A stretch of DNA of 41,468 nucleotides from positions 1 through 41,468 of the forward strand of contig JAPOTS010000139.1 of the NCBI GenBank assembly GCA_026709065.1. The letters are read 5' to 3'. Made by a program: the position numbers and the translations under genes. Below are positions 5,910 through 30,341 of this stretch, in pieces (position 1 is the stretch's first letter; each line of letters begins with the position of its first letter). This DNA is from Bacteroidota bacterium (GTDB lineage Bacteria; Bacteroidota; Rhodothermia; Rhodothermales; Bin80). A model generated the notes under the pieces. The model had not been told where the DNA came from, did no database searches, and saw only the letters and a program-made list of their open reading frames with translations.

Positions 5910-8801
5910 ATGCCTAATAATTCCGAAAAATCAGTCAATACAAAACTTGCGGAGTGTCTCAGGAGCAAACTCTGGGGTTGGAGTGTGGATGCGGAGCAGA
6001 CGGATGTTTTTGTTGACCGGCAAAAGCAACCCGATTTAGTGATCTCCCATGCAGGTGGGCTGACCGTGATTTTGGAGACAGAGTTTTCGCCTGCCCACGG
6101 CGTTGAAGCCGATACGCGTCGGCGATTGGGTCAAACGGTCAATGCGACGAGTGAACAAATTGAGCAGTGCATTGCTGTCAAGATGCCGGTATCACTTCGT
6201 AAGGTAGAGCAGAAGCATCTGGAGATGGCCATAAAAACGGCTCGTTACAATTATGTGGTCTTCACCTTTGATGGGAAAGACGAATTATATGATCACATAG
6301 AGCGGTGGCCGGGTAGTGGCTGGCTTGAAGGGGGTTTAGATGATTTAGCCAGCTGCATAGAGACGGTGGCACTGTCAGAGCGAAGAGTTGCCAAGGGTGT
6401 AAAGATCTTGGAGCGGGGAGTCAGTCAAGCGGCGGGGTATTTGCAGTTTCATGCGCCCGGATATGTTCTGGATGAGCTGGCTGAGGAGCTTCATCAACAA
6501 GGGGGCGAGCAAACCACCCGCATGGCGATGGCGATTTTAGCCAATGCTGTGATCTTCCATATGCGATTAGCCCGGCATCACGCGAAGATAAAGTCATTGA
6601 GTCATACCAAGAACGAACTTGGAACGATCATCCAGTCGGATGTGATAGAAGCGTGGCGTGCGATTCTAAAAATCAATTACTGGCCAATATTCAGATTGGC
6701 ATCTGATCTTTTTCTGATTCTTCCAGAAAGAGAGTCCCAAAAGGTGATCGCCATCTTAAACGATATGGCAGCGCAGTTAGAGCGTTTTGGGGCAGCAGAT
6801 ATTCAGGACTTATCGGGTCGGATGTTTCAGCAACTCATCACAGACCGTAAGTTTTTAGCCACATTTTATACGCTTCCCGCATCGGCGACGCTGCTTTCAG
6901 AGTTAGCGGTATCACGCATAGGGGTGAACTGGTCATCAAGTCAAGAGGTGACCTCTCTACAGGTTTGTGATTTAGCATGTGGGACGGGTGCATTGTTAGG
7001 GGCAACCTACCATGCGTTTGCATCGCGCCATCGGCGCGGGGGCAAGGATGATCGGCGGTTGCATGCCAAGATGATGGAGCGCGTATTGACTGCGGCAGAT
7101 ATCATGCCATCCGCCGTGCATTTGACGGCTGCGACGCTATCGGGGATGCATCCTGATAAACCCTACGGGCATACACGCATTATCACGATGCCGTATGGAG
7201 AGGACAGCAAAGAAAATGGGATATCAATAGGATCATTGGATTTAATGGAGGCCAACGAGACGAGGGCGATTTTTGGGACGGGGCGTAAGGCGCTTTCAGG
7301 GAAGGGGGCAGCGGTAGAAGATTCTAAGGGAATGGTGGTTGAGGTACCCCATCAATCAATGGATTTGGTGGTCATGAATCCGCCATTTACTCGTCCAACC
7401 AACCATGAGGCGACCGAGGTTCCGGTGCCGTCGTTTGCTGGGTTCCAAACACAAAAGCAAGAGCAGTCTAAGATGTCGGCCCGTCTTAGAGAGATTCGGA
7501 AAGGGTTGTCTTATCCGGCAGGGCATGGGAATGCGGGTCTTGCCTCAAATTTCATTGATTTAGCTCATGCCAAGCTTCGTCCTGGGGGAGTACTGGCGTT
7601 GGTTCTACCGGCATCATTTATGCAGGGAAAGTCTTGGGAGAATGCCCGGACACTACTACGCAGATGTTATGAGGATATATTGGTGGTAAGCATTGCAGCG
7701 GAGGGGAATACCGATCGTGCATTTTCTGCAGATACAGCGATGGCGGAAGTGCTGGTCGTAGCGACTCGTAAGGTAGAAAACAATAAACCAGACAATGACA
7801 TAAGTATTGCAAATCTACATCAGAGGCCTGCGACTCAGTTGGAAGCTTTAGTGCTTGCGGATTTGATTGAGCAAAGTCGTATAGATCCGTCACAACCGGG
7901 GGGAAGGCTTGCATTAACTGAGACGGAGATGGCTGGGAGTTTTTTCCGTACAAGCGATTGGGGCGGATTTGGGATCAGAGAATTAACGCTGTTGAAGTGT
8001 ATGAATGCACTTGAAGACGGGGAATTACTATGGCCGAGGATGGGAGGATCAGAGTCCATACCTGTGTGCCAACTTGGTGAGCTTGGACGGCGCGGGTTAT
8101 TGAGCAGAGATATCAATGGTCTCAATAGCGATGGAACGCCACGAGGCCCGTTTGAGATTGTGTCTATGACCGATGGAACGCCTGAATATCCTGTATTGTG
8201 GGGTCATGATGCAACTCGGGAGCAACGATTCGTGGTAGAGCCGGATCAACAGGGAATGGTCCGCAGTGGATATCGGCGGCAGGCGGCTGAGAAGTGGCGT
8301 AATGGAGCCTCGAGGTTACACTACAATGTGGATTTTCGACTGAACTCTCAGCCCTTAGCGACATGTATCACCGAAAAGCCTTGTTTGGGAGGCACGGCAT
8401 GGCCGAATTTTATCACCCAAGAAGAGTGGGAGATTCCTCTGGTGCTATGGGGGAATACGACTCTTGGTTTAATTGCCTTTTGGTGGATAGGTACAAGGCA
8501 GCAACAAGGGCGATCAAGGCTTTCAATATCTCGCATGCCTGAGCTAATATCAATGGATCCGAGGCAATTGACTCAGAAGCAGTTAGATCAATCGCAGGAG
8601 ATCTTTGATCAGTTTAAGGGCAGAGATTTTTTGCCAGCAAATGAAGCCTATCGGGATCAAGCCCGCATAGATTTAGATCATGCAGTCATGGTGTCACTGT
8701 TAGGAGTCCAAGAGCAAATACTTGAAAATCTATCAATCCTTCGTCAGCAATGGTGTGAAGAACCGAGCGTCCATGGCGGAAAAGCAACAAAACCAGTATA
8801 A
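5910..8801 (+). CDS. Type IIG-like restriction-modification protein (N6-adenine methylase with N-terminal nuclease-like domain)
   Basis: 963 residues. The N-terminus has a PD-(D/E)xK-like arrangement: P41-D42 in QPDLVI, then E56-T57-E58 in VILETEF. A helical linker follows, then an N6-methylase core: RKFLATFYTLPASATLLSEL (about 313-332), SAM motif DLACGTGALL (354-363) and catalytic NPPF (490-493). The C-terminal 350 residues probably hold the target-recognition part (seen motifs include LGGTAWPNFI). This order is that of Type IIG/IIL enzymes, which cut and methylate with one polypeptide. No separate specificity subunit, helicase or second methylase lies nearby, so it appears solitary. It is richer in G-rich codons than its neighbours and sits behind a 700-bp gap, both compatible with acquisition. 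An orphan methylase with an inactive nuclease domain is the alternative. ATG start; no ribosome binding site. Confidence 0.75.
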   Translation: MPNNSEKSVNTKLAECLRSKLWGWSVDAEQTDVFVDRQKQPDLVISHAGGLTVILETEFSPAHGVEADTRRRLGQTVNATSEQIEQCIAVKMPVSLRKVEQKHLEMAIKTARYNYVVFTFDGKDELYDHIERWPGSGWLEGGLDDLASCIETVALSERRVAKGVKILERGVSQAAGYLQFHAPGYVLDELAEELHQQGGEQTTRMAMAILANAVIFHMRLARHHAKIKSLSHTKNELGTIIQSDVIEAWRAILKINYWPIFRLASDLFLILPERESQKVIAILNDMAAQLERFGAADIQDLSGRMFQQLITDRKFLATFYTLPASATLLSELAVSRIGVNWSSSQEVTSLQVCDLACGTGALLGATYHAFASRHRRGGKDDRRLHAKMMERVLTAADIMPSAVHLTAATLSGMHPDKPYGHTRIITMPYGEDSKENGISIGSLDLMEANETRAIFGTGRKALSGKGAAVEDSKGMVVEVPHQSMDLVVMNPPFTRPTNHEATEVPVPSFAGFQTQKQEQSKMSARLREIRKGLSYPAGHGNAGLASNFIDLAHAKLRPGGVLALVLPASFMQGKSWENARTLLRRCYEDILVVSIAAEGNTDRAFSADTAMAEVLVVATRKVENNKPDNDISIANLHQRPATQLEALVLADLIEQSRIDPSQPGGRLALTETEMAGSFFRTSDWGGFGIRELTLLKCMNALEDGELLWPRMGGSESIPVCQLGELGRRGLLSRDINGLNSDGTPRGPFEIVSMTDGTPEYPVLWGHDATREQRFVVEPDQQGMVRSGYRRQAAEKWRNGASRLHYNVDFRLNSQPLATCITEKPCLGGTAWPNFITQEEWEIPLVLWGNTTLGLIAFWWIGTRQQQGRSRLSISRMPELISMDPRQLTQKQLDQSQEIFDQFKGRDFLPANEAYRDQARIDLDHAVMVSLLGVQEQILENLSILRQQWCEEPSVHGGKATKPV

Positions 8802-23727: not shown

Positions 23728-24926
23728 TCAGATACAATTGCTTTGCGGTGTCCGTCAGCAAAGTGAATTTTTATAGCATCGTTAGTGTTTAATTGTTCGG
23801 TTAAACGAACCGTTTCCCCTTCGTGTTCAATTCGTGCATATCCGCGAGAAAGAAAGCGTTTAGGGTCAAGGGAAACCATCTGTTGGTTGAGCAAGCTCAC
23901 TTTGTGGATTTGAGATGTGAGACGAACATTGCATGCTTCATGGAGCTGATCAATCAGGGCATTGAGGGTTTGCTGGGCATCACGGACGTGATTTATAGGT
24001 GTATTGAATGAATATGAATTAGTGATTTTGTTGATGCTCTGGCGCATGGACATGATGCGATCAACCATTGCCGTATACATGTGTTGCTCATGCCAATGAA
24101 TGGATTGACTGACTGATGACAATTCAGGGACTGCCATTTGCGCGGCATGTGAGGGAGTTGCAGCACGAATATCAGCAGTTAAATCTGCAATAGTAGTATC
24201 AGTTTCGTGCCCGACTGCACTGATAATGGGAATGCCAGAGTCTGAGATTGCGTAAGCGACAATTTCCTCATTGAAGGCCCATAAATCTTCCAGAGATCCC
24301 CCTCCACGACCGATAATCAATAAATCGGGTTGATATTTAGTTGAGAGACCATTGAATTGGCGGATTGCATGAGAAATCTCAGGCGCCGCATCCGGCCCTT
24401 GAACCCGAACGGATGCCAAAATGAGTTGGCATACAGGGAAGCGATCTCTGAGAATACGAAGAATATCTTGAACCGCAGCACCTTCAGCAGAGGTCACAAT
24501 TCCAATACATTCAGGGATAGCAGGTAGTTTCAGTTTGTTTGAAGGGTCAAAGAGTCCTTTTGATGCCAATTTTTCTTGGAGTTCAAAAAAACGTTTTTGA
24601 AGTTCACCAATGGTTTGTCGGCGTTCAATTTTTCTGACATCAAACTGCAGGCGGCAGTATTTAGGGTAAATAGTTGGGGCTCCGTACACGCGCAGGAGTT
24701 GACCGGGTTGTGGTTGAAAGGAGACGCTCTGCGTTCTACTTTGCCACATCACACATTTCAGAGAGCTGGACTCATCGGCAAGTGTAAAGTACCAGTGACC
24801 TCTTCGGGCTGTGAACTCCGAGAGTTCACCCTCTACCCATGCATGCCCGTACGATCCAATATGCTCGCGTAATTGAGATAGATACTTACCGACTTTTATT
24901 ACAACATCCGAGTGGATTTCTTTCAT
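23724..24926 (-). CDS. xseA: exodeoxyribonuclease VII large subunit
   Basis: 400 residues. An N-terminal OB-fold (AWVEGELSEFTARRGHWYFT, about 28-47) precedes the nuclease core: GIVTSAEGAAVQDILRIL (about 140-157), DLLIIGRGGGSLEDLWAFN (about 200-218) and SAVGHETDTTIADLTADIRA (about 233-252). A helical region and a short C-terminal domain (RFLSRGYARIEHEG) follow. It degrades ssDNA processively with XseB. A decayed copy of its first 420 or so bases lies 2.5 kb upstream (see 26997-27416). ATG start. Confidence 0.95.
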   Translation of the reverse strand: MKEIHSDVVIKVGKYLSQLREHIGSYGHAWVEGELSEFTARRGHWYFTLADESSSLKCVMWQSRTQSVSFQPQPGQLLRVYGAPTIYPKYCRLQFDVRKIERRQTIGELQKRFFELQEKLASKGLFDPSNKLKLPAIPECIGIVTSAEGAAVQDILRILRDRFPVCQLILASVRVQGPDAAPEISHAIRQFNGLSTKYQPDLLIIGRGGGSLEDLWAFNEEIVAYAISDSGIPIISAVGHETDTTIADLTADIRAATPSHAAQMAVPELSSVSQSIHWHEQHMYTAMVDRIMSMRQSINKITNSYSFNTPINHVRDAQQTLNALIDQLHEACNVRLTSQIHKVSLLNQQMVSLDPKRFLSRGYARIEHEGETVRLTEQLNTNDAIKIHFADGHRKAIVSD

Positions 24927-25112
24927 GATAAGATTGTGAATGATTGATGGCCCTAAAACTATATCGTCCTATTGAACTGAAACTACAAAAATAAATTTAC
25001 AGCGATATGATTCAGAAGTTTTTCTTGGTGTAGGGATTTTTCCAGATCATCATGGGTAAAGTTTGATCTGATTGATAGTGACGGGTTATTTTGATTCTTC
25101 ATTCATACATGG
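24503..25112. repeat. duplicated segment, left copy (xseA 5' part and its upstream region)
   Basis: This 610-base stretch covers the first 420 or so bases of xseA plus about 185 bases upstream. By eye it aligns along its whole length with 26997-27605 at roughly nine bases in ten, in the same orientation. Landmarks shared by both include tttgccacatcacacatttc and cttaccgacttttattacaa. The match stops near 25112, just before the region leading to the secreted-peptide gene. Confidence 0.9.
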
Positions 25113-25318
25113 GAGACTCTTGCAAGGGTTTAGGCGGTTATGACAGGAACGAAATTTCTCATTGATCAGTCCAACTATTGTCCTTTGAGACAATGATCTA
25201 ATTTCAACTGGGTGGTTACGTTCATTGTTATTTACTAGTTCAAACCAAATAATAAAATATTCCCTTGACATTTCAATTAATTTATTGCCCCTGAGAGCGA
25301 ACCAAAATAATAATTATC
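25113..25318. other. upstream region of the secreted-peptide gene
   Basis: Together with 24927-25112 this makes a 392-bp gap between the divergent xseA and peptide genes. A TTGACA lies at 25265-25270, but no good -10 box follows at the expected distance. The last 60 bases are A/T-rich. No RNA gene seen. Confidence 0.4.
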
Positions 25319-25588
25319 ATGAATCAATTAAAATTTCGTATTTTCACCCTCTTAGTATCTTCAGTAATGGCACTATCTATGATGATGGTTATGCCTTCTC
25401 TTACAAATGTGTTTGGTACATCTGATATTGTTATCGTTAATCAGGTTGCCTGTGCATCAAGCAATGGGTCTTGTTGCCCTTACAAGAAGGCTGTCTGTGG
25501 TTTGAACGGTCAGAACTATAATGATAAACATTACTCTGACGGAAGCTGTGGTGGTACAGAAGGTCAAGATTGCAATACCCCAGAATAG
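25319..25588 (+). CDS. small secreted Cys-rich peptide, NVEALA-like
   Basis: 89 residues. Residues 1-30 form a hydrophobic leader (MNQLKFRIFTLLVSSVMALS followed by MMM). A short spacer ends in NQVACA (41-46), which aligns with the NVEALA motif that names a family of small Bacteroidota exported peptides. The remaining 44 residues carry six Cys (45, 52, 53, 60, 77, 85) and many Gly, Ser and Asn. The gene stops one base before a TolB-like propeller lipoprotein gene; in Bacteroidota NVEALA peptides commonly sit beside such propeller genes. The biological role of the pair is not known. The assignment rests on the motif, size and neighbour rather than full similarity. Confidence 0.65.
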   Translation: MNQLKFRIFTLLVSSVMALSMMMVMPSLTNVFGTSDIVIVNQVACASSNGSCCPYKKAVCGLNGQNYNDKHYSDGSCGGTEGQDCNTPE

Positions 25589-25589
25589 G

Positions 25590-26660
25590 ATGCACTTTAA
25601 GTGTTATTATCTGGTTTTTGCTCTTCTGATTACCGGTTGCTATGTTAACGAAGACCAACAACTATCCGTAGATGCTATAAATTTTACGATAGACACATTA
25701 ATTACATATCAGTTAGACGGCAGTGTGTTCACTAGCTCTGATAGCTTAGGTTCACCTTTTTCACTAGATGTAGGACAAGAACGGTTGTTTGTTGAAGATA
25801 ACAGTAGTGTGACATCTGGAAATCTGCTAATTTTTGATCTGAGCACTGGCGATTTCCTTTCGTCAGCAGTTAATAAGGGTGAAGGTCCATTAGAAATGAA
25901 TCGATTGCGTTCACTGGATTTTAAACCCAATCAAAACAGTGGATGGTTGTATGATTCCTCCCAAAGGAAAATACAATTTTTTGAGGGAGATTCGTTAACT
26001 GATAAGATGATTCGGTTAGAGGACTCTGGTTTTATTTTTGAAGCAGTCATGACAGAGGGGGATCGTATTGTTACCGCTGGGATGCATGAAGCTGGAAGAT
26101 TAGCAATCCATTCACCAGATGGAAAACTCGTTAGATATTTAGGGGATGACCCTCCAGGTGATCCTGAAATTCCTAATGCAGTGCGTAACCATGTTTACCA
26201 ATCATGGTTAGCTACAAATTCATCTGGAAATCGGATCGTATCTGCAACTTGGCATTCGGATCAAGTAGATATTTTTGACTTGCAAGGTCAGTTGCATTTG
26301 ATCAGAGGACCAGGTTTTCATGAGCCGAAATACTCAGTATATGGAGATGATGATGGAAATTCATGGATGGGACTGGAAGATGAGACGATTATTGCGTATT
26401 TGAGTGTAGATGCAACAGACGAGTTTATTTACGCGCTCTACTGTGGTAAAACGCTGGGATGGTCAATGAGTACTGGGACTGGAACTGCCCGGGGAGATCA
26501 GGTCATCGTGTTTGATTGGAATGGGATTCCTAAAGCTCTACTGCAGATAGAAGATGGTGCTCTGAAAATTGGTATATCTGGGGATGGACGAGATTTGTAT
26601 GCCATATACTATAGCCCCACCCCTCTCATTTTACGTTATGAATTGCCAGATATAGGTTAG
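25590..26660 (+). CDS. TolB-like six-bladed beta-propeller lipoprotein
   Basis: 356 residues from the ATG at 25590, one base after the peptide stop. A longer in-frame start at 25521 would overlap the peptide gene and bury the signal. Residues 1-17 are a lipoprotein signal with lipobox LITGC (C17). The rest is beta-rich with propeller-type repeats: RLFVEDNSS...LLIFDLSTGDFLSS, GWLYDSSQRKIQFFEG, DQVDIFDLQGQL and DQVIVFDWNGIP. This layout fits the TolB-like/6-bladed propeller family (Pfam TolB_like) found next to NVEALA peptides. It is probably on the outer membrane or in the periplasm; a role in binding or processing the peptide is inference. Confidence 0.75.
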   Translation: MHFKCYYLVFALLITGCYVNEDQQLSVDAINFTIDTLITYQLDGSVFTSSDSLGSPFSLDVGQERLFVEDNSSVTSGNLLIFDLSTGDFLSSAVNKGEGPLEMNRLRSLDFKPNQNSGWLYDSSQRKIQFFEGDSLTDKMIRLEDSGFIFEAVMTEGDRIVTAGMHEAGRLAIHSPDGKLVRYLGDDPPGDPEIPNAVRNHVYQSWLATNSSGNRIVSATWHSDQVDIFDLQGQLHLIRGPGFHEPKYSVYGDDDGNSWMGLEDETIIAYLSVDATDEFIYALYCGKTLGWSMSTGTGTARGDQVIVFDWNGIPKALLQIEDGALKIGISGDGRDLYAIYYSPTPLILRYELPDIG

Positions 26661-26732
26661 GGTCCTGGTCTAAGATGAATGATTGGATTCGGGGTAAATG
26701 TATTGTTTCTGATTATGCTTTGTTATAGGTAG

Positions 26733-26965
26733 ACTAATGGTCATGGTTCGGAGCATTCTGAGAGATGTGCCCATCTAAACCGCAGTAATCAGTGATCGCC
26801 ATAATTAAATTCATTAGACTTTCTGATCCTGAATCAACCCACGAGGATGTCCAGTATCCTCATTAGAGAGGTATTTTGAGAGAAAGTTTACCACAATTAT
26901 TTGCTAACATGTCGGTCCTATTGATCTATATTACCTGCAAGGGAATTAATTACCTAACGTAAGTT
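26733..26965 (+). pseudogene. decayed 3' part of the low-molecular-weight phosphatase gene
   Basis: Aligns by eye with about 30826-31060, the second half of the intact phosphatase gene. Shared landmarks are gtcatgg..cggagca, agagatgtgc, gatcctgaatc, cgaggatgt versus agaggatgt, ttttgag, aacatgt and cctattga. Many substitutions and several indels destroy the frame (for example a TAG where the intact gene reads through PYYSG). The 5' half is absent; unrelated sequence precedes it. It runs almost directly into the decayed xseA copy. I infer it is the right-hand end of the left copy of a tandem duplication. Confidence 0.75.
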
Positions 26966-26996
26966 TGTACGGTTAGAAAAATTTTGAATCTTGATC

Positions 26997-27416
26997 CAAT
27001 GCATTCTAGGATCGCGGGTAAATTCAGTTTGTTTGTAGGGTCAAAGAGCCCTTCTGATGACAATTTTTCTTGAAGTCCAAAAAACGCCTCTGAAGGTCAC
27101 TAATGGTTTATCGGCGTTCAAATTTTCTAACATCAAACATTAGACGGCAGTATTTTGGGCAAATAGTTGGGGCTCCCTAACGCGCAGGAGTTGACCGGGC
27201 TGTGGTTGAAAGGAGACTTTCTGCGTTCTACTTTGCCACATCACACATTTCAGTGAGCTGGATTCATTGCAAGTGTAAAGTACCAGTGACCTCTTAGGGC
27301 TGTGAACTCTGAGAGTTTACCTTCTACCTATGCATGTCCGTACGATCCAATAGCTCGCGTAACTAAGATAGATACTTACCGACTTTTATTACAACATCTG
27401 AGTGGCTTTCTTTCAT
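26997..27416 (-). pseudogene. decayed 5' part of xseA
   Basis: Second copy of the beginning of xseA, start codon included (cat at 27414-27416). It matches 24503-24926 at about nine bases in ten by eye but has at least three single-base losses relative to the intact gene: in the ctccgtacacgcg, actcatcggcaag and atatgctcgcg stretches. The product would be frameshifted, and only about a third of the gene is present. The bases 27417-27605 continue the match into the xseA upstream region. The AbiEi-like gene begins 51 bases after the match ends. Confidence 0.9.
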
Positions 27417-27605
27417 GATAAGATTGTGTAATGATTGATGCTACTGAAACTATATCGTCCTATTGAACTGAAACTACAAAAATAAATTTACAGCGAATGA
27501 TTCAGAATTTTTTCTTGGTGTTAGGATTTTTCCAGATTATCATGGATGAAGTTTGATCAGAGTGATAAGGGATCGGTTATTTTGATTTTTCATATATTAC
27601 ATGGT
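26997..27605. repeat. duplicated segment, right copy
   Basis: Direct-repeat partner of 24503-25112. It holds the decayed xseA start and its former promoter region, whose plus-strand side now faces the first AbiEi-like gene. Confidence 0.9.
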
Positions 27606-27656
27606 TAATATAATTACAAAAAGGTGGTACTTGAAAATATTTTCATATCAGATTAG

Positions 27657-28493
27657 ATGAAATGCAATAGAACATCAAAATTAACATCTTTACTCAATGA
27701 CTTACCCTTAGGGTGTATTGTAGACACATCATGGTTCAAGCAAAGAGGAATTTCGTCCAATTTAGTGTGGAATTATTCGCAGCAAGGATGGATTGAACGC
27801 GTTATTCGGGGAGTCTACCGCCTCCCTCTGCCAAGTAATATTGAATTAGGAAAAATCACATGGGAGACTGTACTTATATCATTACAACGCCTCCTAAACT
27901 ATGATATACATTTAGGCGGTAGAAATGCATTAGACAAGGCAGGATATGCTCATTTTATAATGATGGGTGATGGGCAGCGAATTGACTTTTATGGTAGTGC
28001 TCCCTCATGGTTAAATCGCCTTCCTACAAGAGACAATATCGTAGTCACTAAATCTACACTTTTTGAGGATCATCGTATTGGGATCGTTGACCACAATTAT
28101 CTTAAAGATCAGTCAGATTGGGCTGCTGGGATTTGGAGATGGCCGATCAAAGTGTCAACGCCAGAACGAGCAATTCTTGAATTGATTGATCAGTTGAACG
28201 GGAAGTCTGATTTTGAATATGTTCAACTCTATTTTGAGAGTCTGGTATCGCTTAATCCAGAACTTCTTATGGAACTACTTCAGTCCTGTCGGAGCATTAA
28301 GGCCAGAAGGTTATTCTTTGTTTACGCTGATTATTATCAACATTCATGGCGAAAACATTTAGACACAAGTTCAATCAATTTTGGTCATGGACCACGCATG
28401 TTAGTTCCCAATGGGCGATTCCATCCGATCTATAAAATATCACTTCCAGAAAATTTTTTAGATACCTCATACGAAGATAATTGCATCTTTTAA
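27657..28493 (+). CDS. AbiEi-like antitoxin, copy 1
   Basis: 278 residues. The N-terminal winged-helix part (about 1-60) has the family pattern LPLGCIVDTSWFKQRGISS followed by GWIERVIRGVYRLP. A larger C-terminal domain has LGGRNALDKAGY (about 95), STPERAILELIDQL (about 172), SIKARRLFFVYADYY (about 220) and the ending HPIYKISLPENFLDTSYEDN. AbiEi proteins bind their own promoter through the wHTH and neutralise the AbiEii nucleotidyltransferase. The gene is a diverged paralogue of the next one and has no toxin gene of its own directly after it. ATG start. Confidence 0.8.
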   Translation: MKCNRTSKLTSLLNDLPLGCIVDTSWFKQRGISSNLVWNYSQQGWIERVIRGVYRLPLPSNIELGKITWETVLISLQRLLNYDIHLGGRNALDKAGYAHFIMMGDGQRIDFYGSAPSWLNRLPTRDNIVVTKSTLFEDHRIGIVDHNYLKDQSDWAAGIWRWPIKVSTPERAILELIDQLNGKSDFEYVQLYFESLVSLNPELLMELLQSCRSIKARRLFFVYADYYQHSWRKHLDTSSINFGHGPRMLVPNGRFHPIYKISLPENFLDTSYEDNCIF

Positions 28494-28612
28494 ATGGATG
28501 GCTGATAAATACCAACTTCTATCTGTTGGAGAAGTCTTTCGGTTGGCTTGACATTATTGATTGGTAGTTCATCTGCCATGATAATTTTGTGAAGCCTTAT
28601 AGAATTGTGTAA

Positions 28613-29437
28613 ATGAGAAATTCAAGATTAAAAGCTCTGATCCGTGATTTGCCTCAGGGATTTATTGTTGAGACACCATGGTTGATAGCAAGAGGCATTG
28701 GTTCTAGATCTATTCATGATTACGTAAAGCATGGATGGATTGAGCGGATTGTAAGAGGAGTCTATCGGAGACCACTTCATCATACTGAATCAGATCATCT
28801 GTCTTGGCAGGTCATTCTTCTTTCATGTCAGCACCTAATGCAACGTAAGATGCATTTAGGGGGAAGAAATGCATTGGAATATGCCTACAACAAGCATTCA
28901 GTAAGGTTAAGAACAAGACAAACAGTGCATTTCTATGGAGATTACCCAAGTTGGATCAACCGTCTTCCTACAAAAGATTCAATCAAATTGCACAAATCCT
29001 CGCTTTTCGCAGGAAACTCAGTGGGTCTCATTGAAGAACCCCTACTTGCATTCAACAAAAATTATGTAGCAGAGATTTGGCATTGGCCAGTGAGAGCATC
29101 ATGTCGCGAACGAGCAATTCTTGAAATGATTTCTCAGATAAGACGGGATTCAGATTTTGTGCATGTAGATATGCAATTTCAATCACTAAAATTCCTCTGC
29201 CCTAAGCGACTGATGCAGTTACTCATGGCTTGTGTTAGCATCAAGGTAAAACGATTATTTTTTGCATTTGCAGATTTATATCAATTTCCGTGGAGAGAGA
29301 ATTTGGACCCTACCCAAATTGATTTAGGTAGTGGGCCTCGGGCTTTATTTTCTGGTGGATCTTATCATCCCATTTACCAAATCTCTCTTCCAGATTTTTT
29401 CTTTGAAAACCCTTACGAAGATGACTGTATCTTCTAA
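28613..29437 (+). CDS. AbiEi-like antitoxin, copy 2
   Basis: 274 residues, collinear with copy 1 through its entire length: DLPQGFIVETPWLIARGIGS, GWIERIVRGVYRRP, LGGRNALEYAY, SCRERAILEMISQI, SIKVKRLFFAFADLY, and the shared ending PIYQISLPDFFFENPYEDDC. It has an N-terminal winged helix and a C-terminal antitoxin domain. Its last 17 bases overlap the start of the AbiEii toxin gene, the coupling expected of a bicistronic AbiE system, so this copy is likely the cognate antitoxin. The 119 bases between the two copies contain no gene. Confidence 0.85.
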   Translation: MRNSRLKALIRDLPQGFIVETPWLIARGIGSRSIHDYVKHGWIERIVRGVYRRPLHHTESDHLSWQVILLSCQHLMQRKMHLGGRNALEYAYNKHSVRLRTRQTVHFYGDYPSWINRLPTKDSIKLHKSSLFAGNSVGLIEEPLLAFNKNYVAEIWHWPVRASCRERAILEMISQIRRDSDFVHVDMQFQSLKFLCPKRLMQLLMACVSIKVKRLFFAFADLYQFPWRENLDPTQIDLGSGPRALFSGGSYHPIYQISLPDFFFENPYEDDCIF

Positions 29438-30341
29438 TTATCTTGACCAAGTGGTAATGCTGGTAGAGACCTTACCGCATATATCCGAGGAGTCAAGGTT
29501 TGCACTGAAAGGAGGCACTGCCATAAACCTATTTTATCGGGAAATGCCGAGGGTATCAATAGATATTGACCTTGTCTGGTTACCAGATGCAAATCGTTCA
29601 GACTCTCTTAGAGATATGGGTATCTGCTTTGATAGTATTGTTAGATCAATTAATCAAGATGACTGGAGAACGAATGCTAAACGTGTATTAGGACACAAGA
29701 AAAATAATCCTAAAATATATGTTACTCGAGACGATACAACGATTAAAATTGAGGCATCCGCTGTGATCAGGGGAACAGTGCGACCATCGCAAAATATGTT
29801 TTTTTCAAATGCTGCATCAAAACGATTTGGTCAACTATCAATGCAGGTGGTTTCTTTTGAAGATGTGTACGGAGGCAAGATCACTGCAGCGCTTGATCGT
29901 AAGCATCCGCGTGACTTATTTGATATAATGATTTTGTATGAGAACGAGAAAATCTCTGAAAAGCTTTTTTATGTCTTTATGGTTTATGTCGCAAGTTCAC
30001 CACGGCCTATGCATGAGTTACTAGCGCCCACTATTGCTGTGCAAGAAGATAGTGATGACTTGCGATTCAAGGGAATGGATGCATGGAAAACACCACTTAG
30101 TAAATTGATTGATACGGGGTATCGTCTCCATGAAGATATTGGTTCACGCCTGACAGGTTCCATCGCAGAATTTCTACTTTCGCTTCATGATGCTGAGCCC
30201 GATTTTGAGTTAATCGGATTCCCCGATGCAGTCAAACTTCCTGCTGTACGATGGAAGCAACTAAATTTGGAAAAATTAATGGGCATGAATCCTAGAAAGC
30301 ATGCCGAGCAGCGTCGTGCACTTGAGATTCTCTTAAAATGA
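29421..30341 (+). CDS. abiEii: AbiEii nucleotidyltransferase toxin
   Basis: 306 residues from the ATG at 29421; upstream in-frame starts would lie deep inside the antitoxin gene. Nucleotidyltransferase motifs of the AbiEii family are visible: GGTAIN (31-36) and SIDIDL (D48 and D50), KIEAS (109-113), the Lys of YGGKITAAL (153), and the HPRDLFD segment (162-168). In characterised AbiE systems the toxin transfers nucleotides to block growth during phage infection, reversibly neutralised by AbiEi. All expected catalytic residues appear intact. It is followed by 210 non-coding bases before the phosphatase gene. Confidence 0.88.
   Translation: MTVSSNYLDQVVMLVETLPHISEESRFALKGGTAINLFYREMPRVSIDIDLVWLPDANRSDSLRDMGICFDSIVRSINQDDWRTNAKRVLGHKKNNPKIYVTRDDTTIKIEASAVIRGTVRPSQNMFFSNAASKRFGQLSMQVVSFEDVYGGKITAALDRKHPRDLFDIMILYENEKISEKLFYVFMVYVASSPRPMHELLAPTIAVQEDSDDLRFKGMDAWKTPLSKLIDTGYRLHEDIGSRLTGSIAEFLLSLHDAEPDFELIGFPDAVKLPAVRWKQLNLEKLMGMNPRKHAEQRRALEILLK

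Follow-up and report, generated by a model that had tools for sequence, protein, structure and literature searches.

A putative exported Cys-bearing peptide encoded beside a TolB-like propeller lipoprotein in Rhodothermales, a candidate ligand and its reader

The closest described counterparts of the locus reported here are two Pfam families, NVEALA (PF14055) and TolB_like (PF15869). NVEALA precursors are small and exported, with a hydrophobic stretch, a spacer, a small-x-small motif end and a Cys-bearing core, and a propeller gene often lies downstream, an adjacency that is not part of the Pfam definition; the locus described below shares this layout. The TolB_like family overlaps with DUF5128 (PF17170, 6-bladed beta-propeller). 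In the part of the open-access literature covered by our search, we found neither a description of the role of the TolB_like family nor a paper describing a peptide/propeller system, in agreement with the preliminary description of this DNA, which put it forward as a candidate for an undescribed peptide system.

We analyzed a stretch of 41,468 nucleotides (hereafter, the window) from a Bacteroidota bacterium of the order Rhodothermales. The preliminary description had identified an exported 89-aa precursor with a propeller lipoprotein one base downstream; this pair is real and its coordinates hold. The peptide gene (25319-25588) starts with the ATG at 25319 and ends with the stop codon at 25586-25588, and a single base (25589) separates it from the ATG of the lipoprotein gene (25590-26660). 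Another in-frame ATG upstream, at 25521, would give a longer lipoprotein, and the start at 25590 was preferred because of the lipobox (LLITGC). The features of the pair are as follows.

25319-25456, forward strand: putative export leader of the peptide, 46 aa, ending in ACA at the place of NVEALA (from the sequence)
25457-25588, forward strand: predicted mature peptide, 43 aa with 5 Cys and a net charge of -2, plus the stop codon (putative cleavage site)
25590-26660, forward strand: TolB-like beta-propeller lipoprotein, 356 aa (PF15869, E-value 4.3e-18, 66.1 bits)

The leader runs from a basic N-end through a hydrophobic stretch and a spacer to ACA, the end of the motif NQVACA (residues 41-46). 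The precursor has six Cys residues (45, 52, 53, 60, 77 and 85), as had been counted before, with the correction that Cys45 lies within ACA and only the other five follow the motif. Neither the peptide nor the lipoprotein had a match in NCBIfam or PADLOC, no RNA was detected by the Rfam scan of 24900-27660, promoter-like matches did not exceed those in shuffled sequence, and a terminator was looked for and not found. Elsewhere in the window, a large protein at 5910-8801 had methyltransferase-type PADLOC matches (best 43.2 bits).

The lipoprotein is a member of the TolB_like family, as had been expected, with residues 53-315 matching PF15869 at 66.1 bits against a gathering cut-off of 29.2; the match to DUF5128 is weaker and barely above the cut-off (23.2 vs 22.9 bits). 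Its predicted structure is mostly beta (mean pLDDT 66.6, pTM 0.67), with low confidence at the N-end, where the first 110 residues are mostly below 50 pLDDT (most of residues 12-106). Propeller folds top the Foldseek match list for this model, which supports a beta-propeller fold for the lipoprotein and is silent on its ligand. The exported protein BF0058 of Bacteroides fragilis (PDB 4RAA) was both a fold match and a profile match (E-value 4.9e-05), the latter confined to profile positions 67-149; we know of no peptide partner for this protein. Among 198 sampled Bacteroidota genomes, PF15869 was detected in 32 at E ≤ 0.001 and in 18 over the cut-off.

The peptide had also been likened to NVEALA, and membership was not borne out: PF14055 did not match it at E ≤ 10 in Pfam, nor at 0.1, and a profile-profile comparison placed NQVACA opposite NVEALA with a probability of only 3.7%. 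The only Pfam match of the window peptide was Draxin at an E-value of 3.6, which is at chance level. NVEALA scored over its cut-off in 2 of 394 sampled genomes and in 10 of the 30 genomes of one family, and a profile search of the window's own genome at 0.01 detected none. The window peptide and its relatives carry a C-G-x-N-G-x-x-Y stretch, which we take to resemble part of Kazal domains. A protease-inhibitor-like peptide is nonetheless the most improbable reading that we consider, as Pfam gave the window peptide no Kazal match at E ≤ 10 and the core profile matched no solved structure.

With the window peptide as the sole query, a search of 148 related genomes yielded eight places at E ≤ 0.01 (window, G050, G009, G000 C130, G062, G079, G010 and G031), and in every one of them a propeller frame directly follows the peptide (that of G009 runs off the contig end). 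E-values in other genomes included 2.1e-11 in G009 and 9.1e-7 in G079. The pair is therefore more than a chance neighborhood, since homologues exist in other genomes and all eight places are propeller-adjacent. Eight named loci with related propellers belong to metagenome-assembled genomes of Rhodothermaceae, Rhodothermales, Bacteroidetes and Bacteroidota, in support of the Rhodothermota-like placement suggested earlier. A-C-A is conserved in six of seven aligned Rhodothermales peptides, with SYA in the remaining one; in Bacteroidales and other genomes, the conservation of the leaders ends at the corresponding position. The window peptide and its relatives share the core pattern CC-x6-C-x3-G-x2-Y..GxC. 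In this respect they differ from the NVEALA peptides of Bacteroidales, whose cores are variable, and the window peptide is therefore a member of a stable branch. The NVEALA loci and the propeller-based count given next bear out the earlier claim that the pairing recurs in Bacteroidota.

Linkage was counted across Bacteroidota at loci that had been fetched via the propellers, with no peptide used, and the controls were a few other genes from the same loci. An exported ORF with 4 or more Cys was found upstream of 23 of the 83 propellers and of 1 of the 63 other genes (26 and 3, respectively, with at least 2 Cys). The alternative count of 36/106 propellers vs 13/291 other genes includes loci fetched via peptides, and 23/83 vs 1/63 is the one that we trust. 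Along with the eight of eight places above, it counts for the ligand reading set out below. Of the 35 motif-bearing peptides at the NVEALA loci, 20 directly precede a propeller, 13 precede something else or nothing recognized, and 2 have no room for a neighbor; 5 of the 13 precede a thioredoxin-like lipoprotein (by reading of the list), and the operon layout agrees with this. The two genes might alternatively be linked and functionally separate, with the peptide serving as a small protein of structure or surface and the propeller having another role. That the majority of propellers lack a detected peptide and that 13/35 NVEALA peptides precede something not recognized by the propeller model, or nothing, both suit this explanation, which the 8/8 linkage in related genomes and the array layout in Bacteroidales make unlikely.

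Our preferred reading, to which we assign a probability of roughly 0.4, is that the pair encodes a leader-cleaved, disulfide-bonded peptide that acts as the cognate ligand of its propeller lipoprotein, probably in signaling or recognition. As judged from sequence, the precursor would be exported via Sec and cut after ACA, the place of NVEALA in Bacteroidales. The released acidic core would then form disulfides, as Cys parity and the redox genes near its relatives suggest, and the TolB-like propeller, lipid-anchored in the envelope, may bind it, as the linkage suggests. In the last and least certain step, the peptide would be a signal or a self-recognition ligand; whether the role is one of signaling or of immunity is a matter of speculation. 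The window may represent a minimal two-gene form of such a system, within an accessory island.

In Bacteroidales, NVEALA peptides have the same peptide/propeller layout and are arranged in arrays. The arrays also hold S26 signal peptidases (>100 bits), CTSC-motif lipoproteins (including fusions to DUF1573), thioredoxin-like lipoproteins, a divergently encoded two-TM regulator-like gene and large proteins, two of which have a sub-threshold transglutaminase match. The S26 genes outside tandem pairs in G329 (one) and G422 (two) all lie within NVEALA clusters, which counts for processing of the leader; G203 has one S26 gene, on a different contig. Close paralogue pairs in G203, G329, G422 and G141 have leaders that are 83-93% identical and cores that are 11-32% identical, and the break in identity falls at the NVEALA-type site; the contrast is not clear in the more diverged pairs of G329 and G422 and in all those of G128. 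For four of these pairs, the partner genes were compared and proved only 23-28% identical. In two of the four comparisons, one partner either needed the filters switched off to score as a propeller or did not score as one; the comparisons of G486 (both loci share the same propeller) and G422 8772/6517 (the second is not a direct neighbor) were dropped. A leader that is constant while core and partner differ fits a constant processing signal with a variable ligand and reader, and the joint divergence of cores and partners thus counts for the pairing of ligand and propeller.

One class of NVEALA peptides has a ring-type core, C-x-G-x-G-x2-3-C. Of the seven loci where at least 600 bases were available for a neighbor, six have, divergent to the ring peptide, a gene whose product is predicted to contain two TM segments; the exception is L196, which has a different core. 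None of the 24 other peptides has this gene beside it.

L127, L129, L131, L179, L184 and L199: ring peptides divergent to a membrane-spanning regulator-like gene

Among the three two-TM proteins scanned, Trans_reg_C matched one above and one below the cut-off, with no match in the third. The divergent gene and the two matches count for regulation. The signal peptidase, thioredoxin-like lipoproteins and membrane-spanning regulator-like protein that the Bacteroidales operon adds are what autoregulated peptide sensing would need.

The preliminary description took the Cys residues to be compatible with disulfides, which finds indirect support in the parity of the related cores, 58 of the 66 having an even number of Cys. 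These comprise 33/35 NVEALA peptides and 25/31 others (22 of the 31 when all Cys after the hydrophobic stretch are counted instead), under a cleavage rule that was set after the sequences had been inspected, and we claim no probability from the parity of peptides that are related to one another. If the ACA Cys, where present, leaves with the leader, five Rhodothermales relatives retain 4, 4, 4, 2 and 4 Cys. The window core is the exception, with five after cleavage due to the tail Cys at residue 85, and its odd number counts against a disulfide-bonded ligand. The G203 peptide/propeller array contains a MauE gene (PF07291, 84.1 bits; L138:3762-4247), which counts for disulfides together with the parity and the thioredoxin-like neighbors. 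MauE also prompted a different reading. Methylamine dehydrogenase and quinohemoprotein amine dehydrogenase combine a small disulfide-rich subunit with a propeller subunit, and by analogy the peptide could be the small subunit of such an enzyme, with which the thioredoxin-like genes and the combination of a propeller with a small exported Cys-rich chain would agree. We consider this very unlikely, as the window peptide contains no Trp, the cores of sister peptides are mutually unlike, which is not as in a catalytic subunit, and such an enzyme was not recognized in the neighborhoods inspected.

The genomic setting brings in the main rival of the ligand reading. In six of nine congeners, xseA adjoins a low-molecular-weight phosphatase gene. 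These two genes are 5.6 kb apart in the window, and between them lie the pair, three AbiE genes and two direct repeats that flank the pair.

24501-25102: direct repeat R1, the 5' part of xseA and its upstream region
26995-27593: direct repeat R2, a broken copy of the 5' part of xseA and its upstream region (xseA matches with stops)
27657-30341: two tandem AbiEi genes followed by one AbiEii gene, in the same island

Of the 10 genomes of the genus that were searched, this one alone had the broken xseA copy. The spacing and the repeats therefore indicate that the pair is accessory, and it was probably added at this site in the window genome. Neither a regulator nor a redox gene is beside the pair, and the only nearby S26 gene is lepB-like and about 7 kb away.

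Decay was observed at several of the related loci. The window's own genome (G000) has three such propellers: that of the window, that of C130, where the peptide is frameshifted and has stops, and that of C132, where the peptide is only an 8.9-bit trace. A peptide model was scanned against 27 upstream regions (20 propeller loci and 7 named loci, with duplicates of the same DNA counted once) and scored at least 30 bits in 10 of the 20 Rhodothermales propeller loci; the peptides used for the model match by construction, and the matches outside it are G050, G062, G000 C130 and G009 C35. Full peptide frames are present in 5/20 loci (window, G079, G031, G010 and G001 C70), and another 5/20 have a broken or truncated peptide and a propeller frame that continues (G000 C130, G050, G062, G005 C61 and G009 C35). 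Propellers are split in G010 and G012 and have stops in G001 C57 and G010 C28, so the decay hits both partners, not the peptide alone. In two loci, the peptide breaks at the border between leader and core, and the remaining frame is alike in both.

L047 and L048, 1060-1400, reverse strand: broken peptides of G062 and G050 (frameshift and TAG)

Lantibiotic producers have lipoprotein immunity, and by analogy the peptide could be bacteriocin-like and the propeller lipoprotein its immunity protein. An accessory island adjoining AbiE genes, variable cores with diverged partners, and broken or truncated peptides beside continuing propeller frames would all be in keeping with this, the last suiting orphan immunity as well as a ligand. 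The cores are acidic (mean net charge -2.5, with a single core of the 66 reaching +2 or above), which argues against a cationic pore-former, no dedicated transporter was noticed in the neighborhoods inspected, several loci have broken propellers too, and the regulator-like gene and S26 peptidases of Bacteroidales suit signaling. On balance we regard bacteriocin and immunity as rather improbable.

Several observations also count against a cognate ligand, namely the 60 of 83 propellers without a detected peptide, the window's want of a neighboring regulator, redox gene or close S26 gene, and the failure of its peptide to match NVEALA. What we carry over from Bacteroidales to the window is based on the layout and on the homology of the propellers, and not on homology between the peptides.

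A wider and more doubtful extension would be a Bacteroidota-wide system of peptide recognition or communication. Here a shared leader would be cut at NVEALA/ACA (in Bacteroidales by the cluster-borne S26) to release variable acidic disulfide peptides, every peptide would have a propeller lipoprotein of its own as reader, and the conserved ring peptide would feed a membrane-spanning winged-helix regulator; the window would be a reduced Rhodothermales form. The Rhodothermales pair suggests that the peptide/propeller unit extends beyond NVEALA. If the extension is true, it would provide two Pfam families that have no known role with a shared context and a mechanism that can be tested, with questions as to where the leader is cut and by which enzyme, what partner the peptide has and to what the regulator responds. 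The operons of Bacteroidales, which have true NVEALA peptides, would be the place for testing it.
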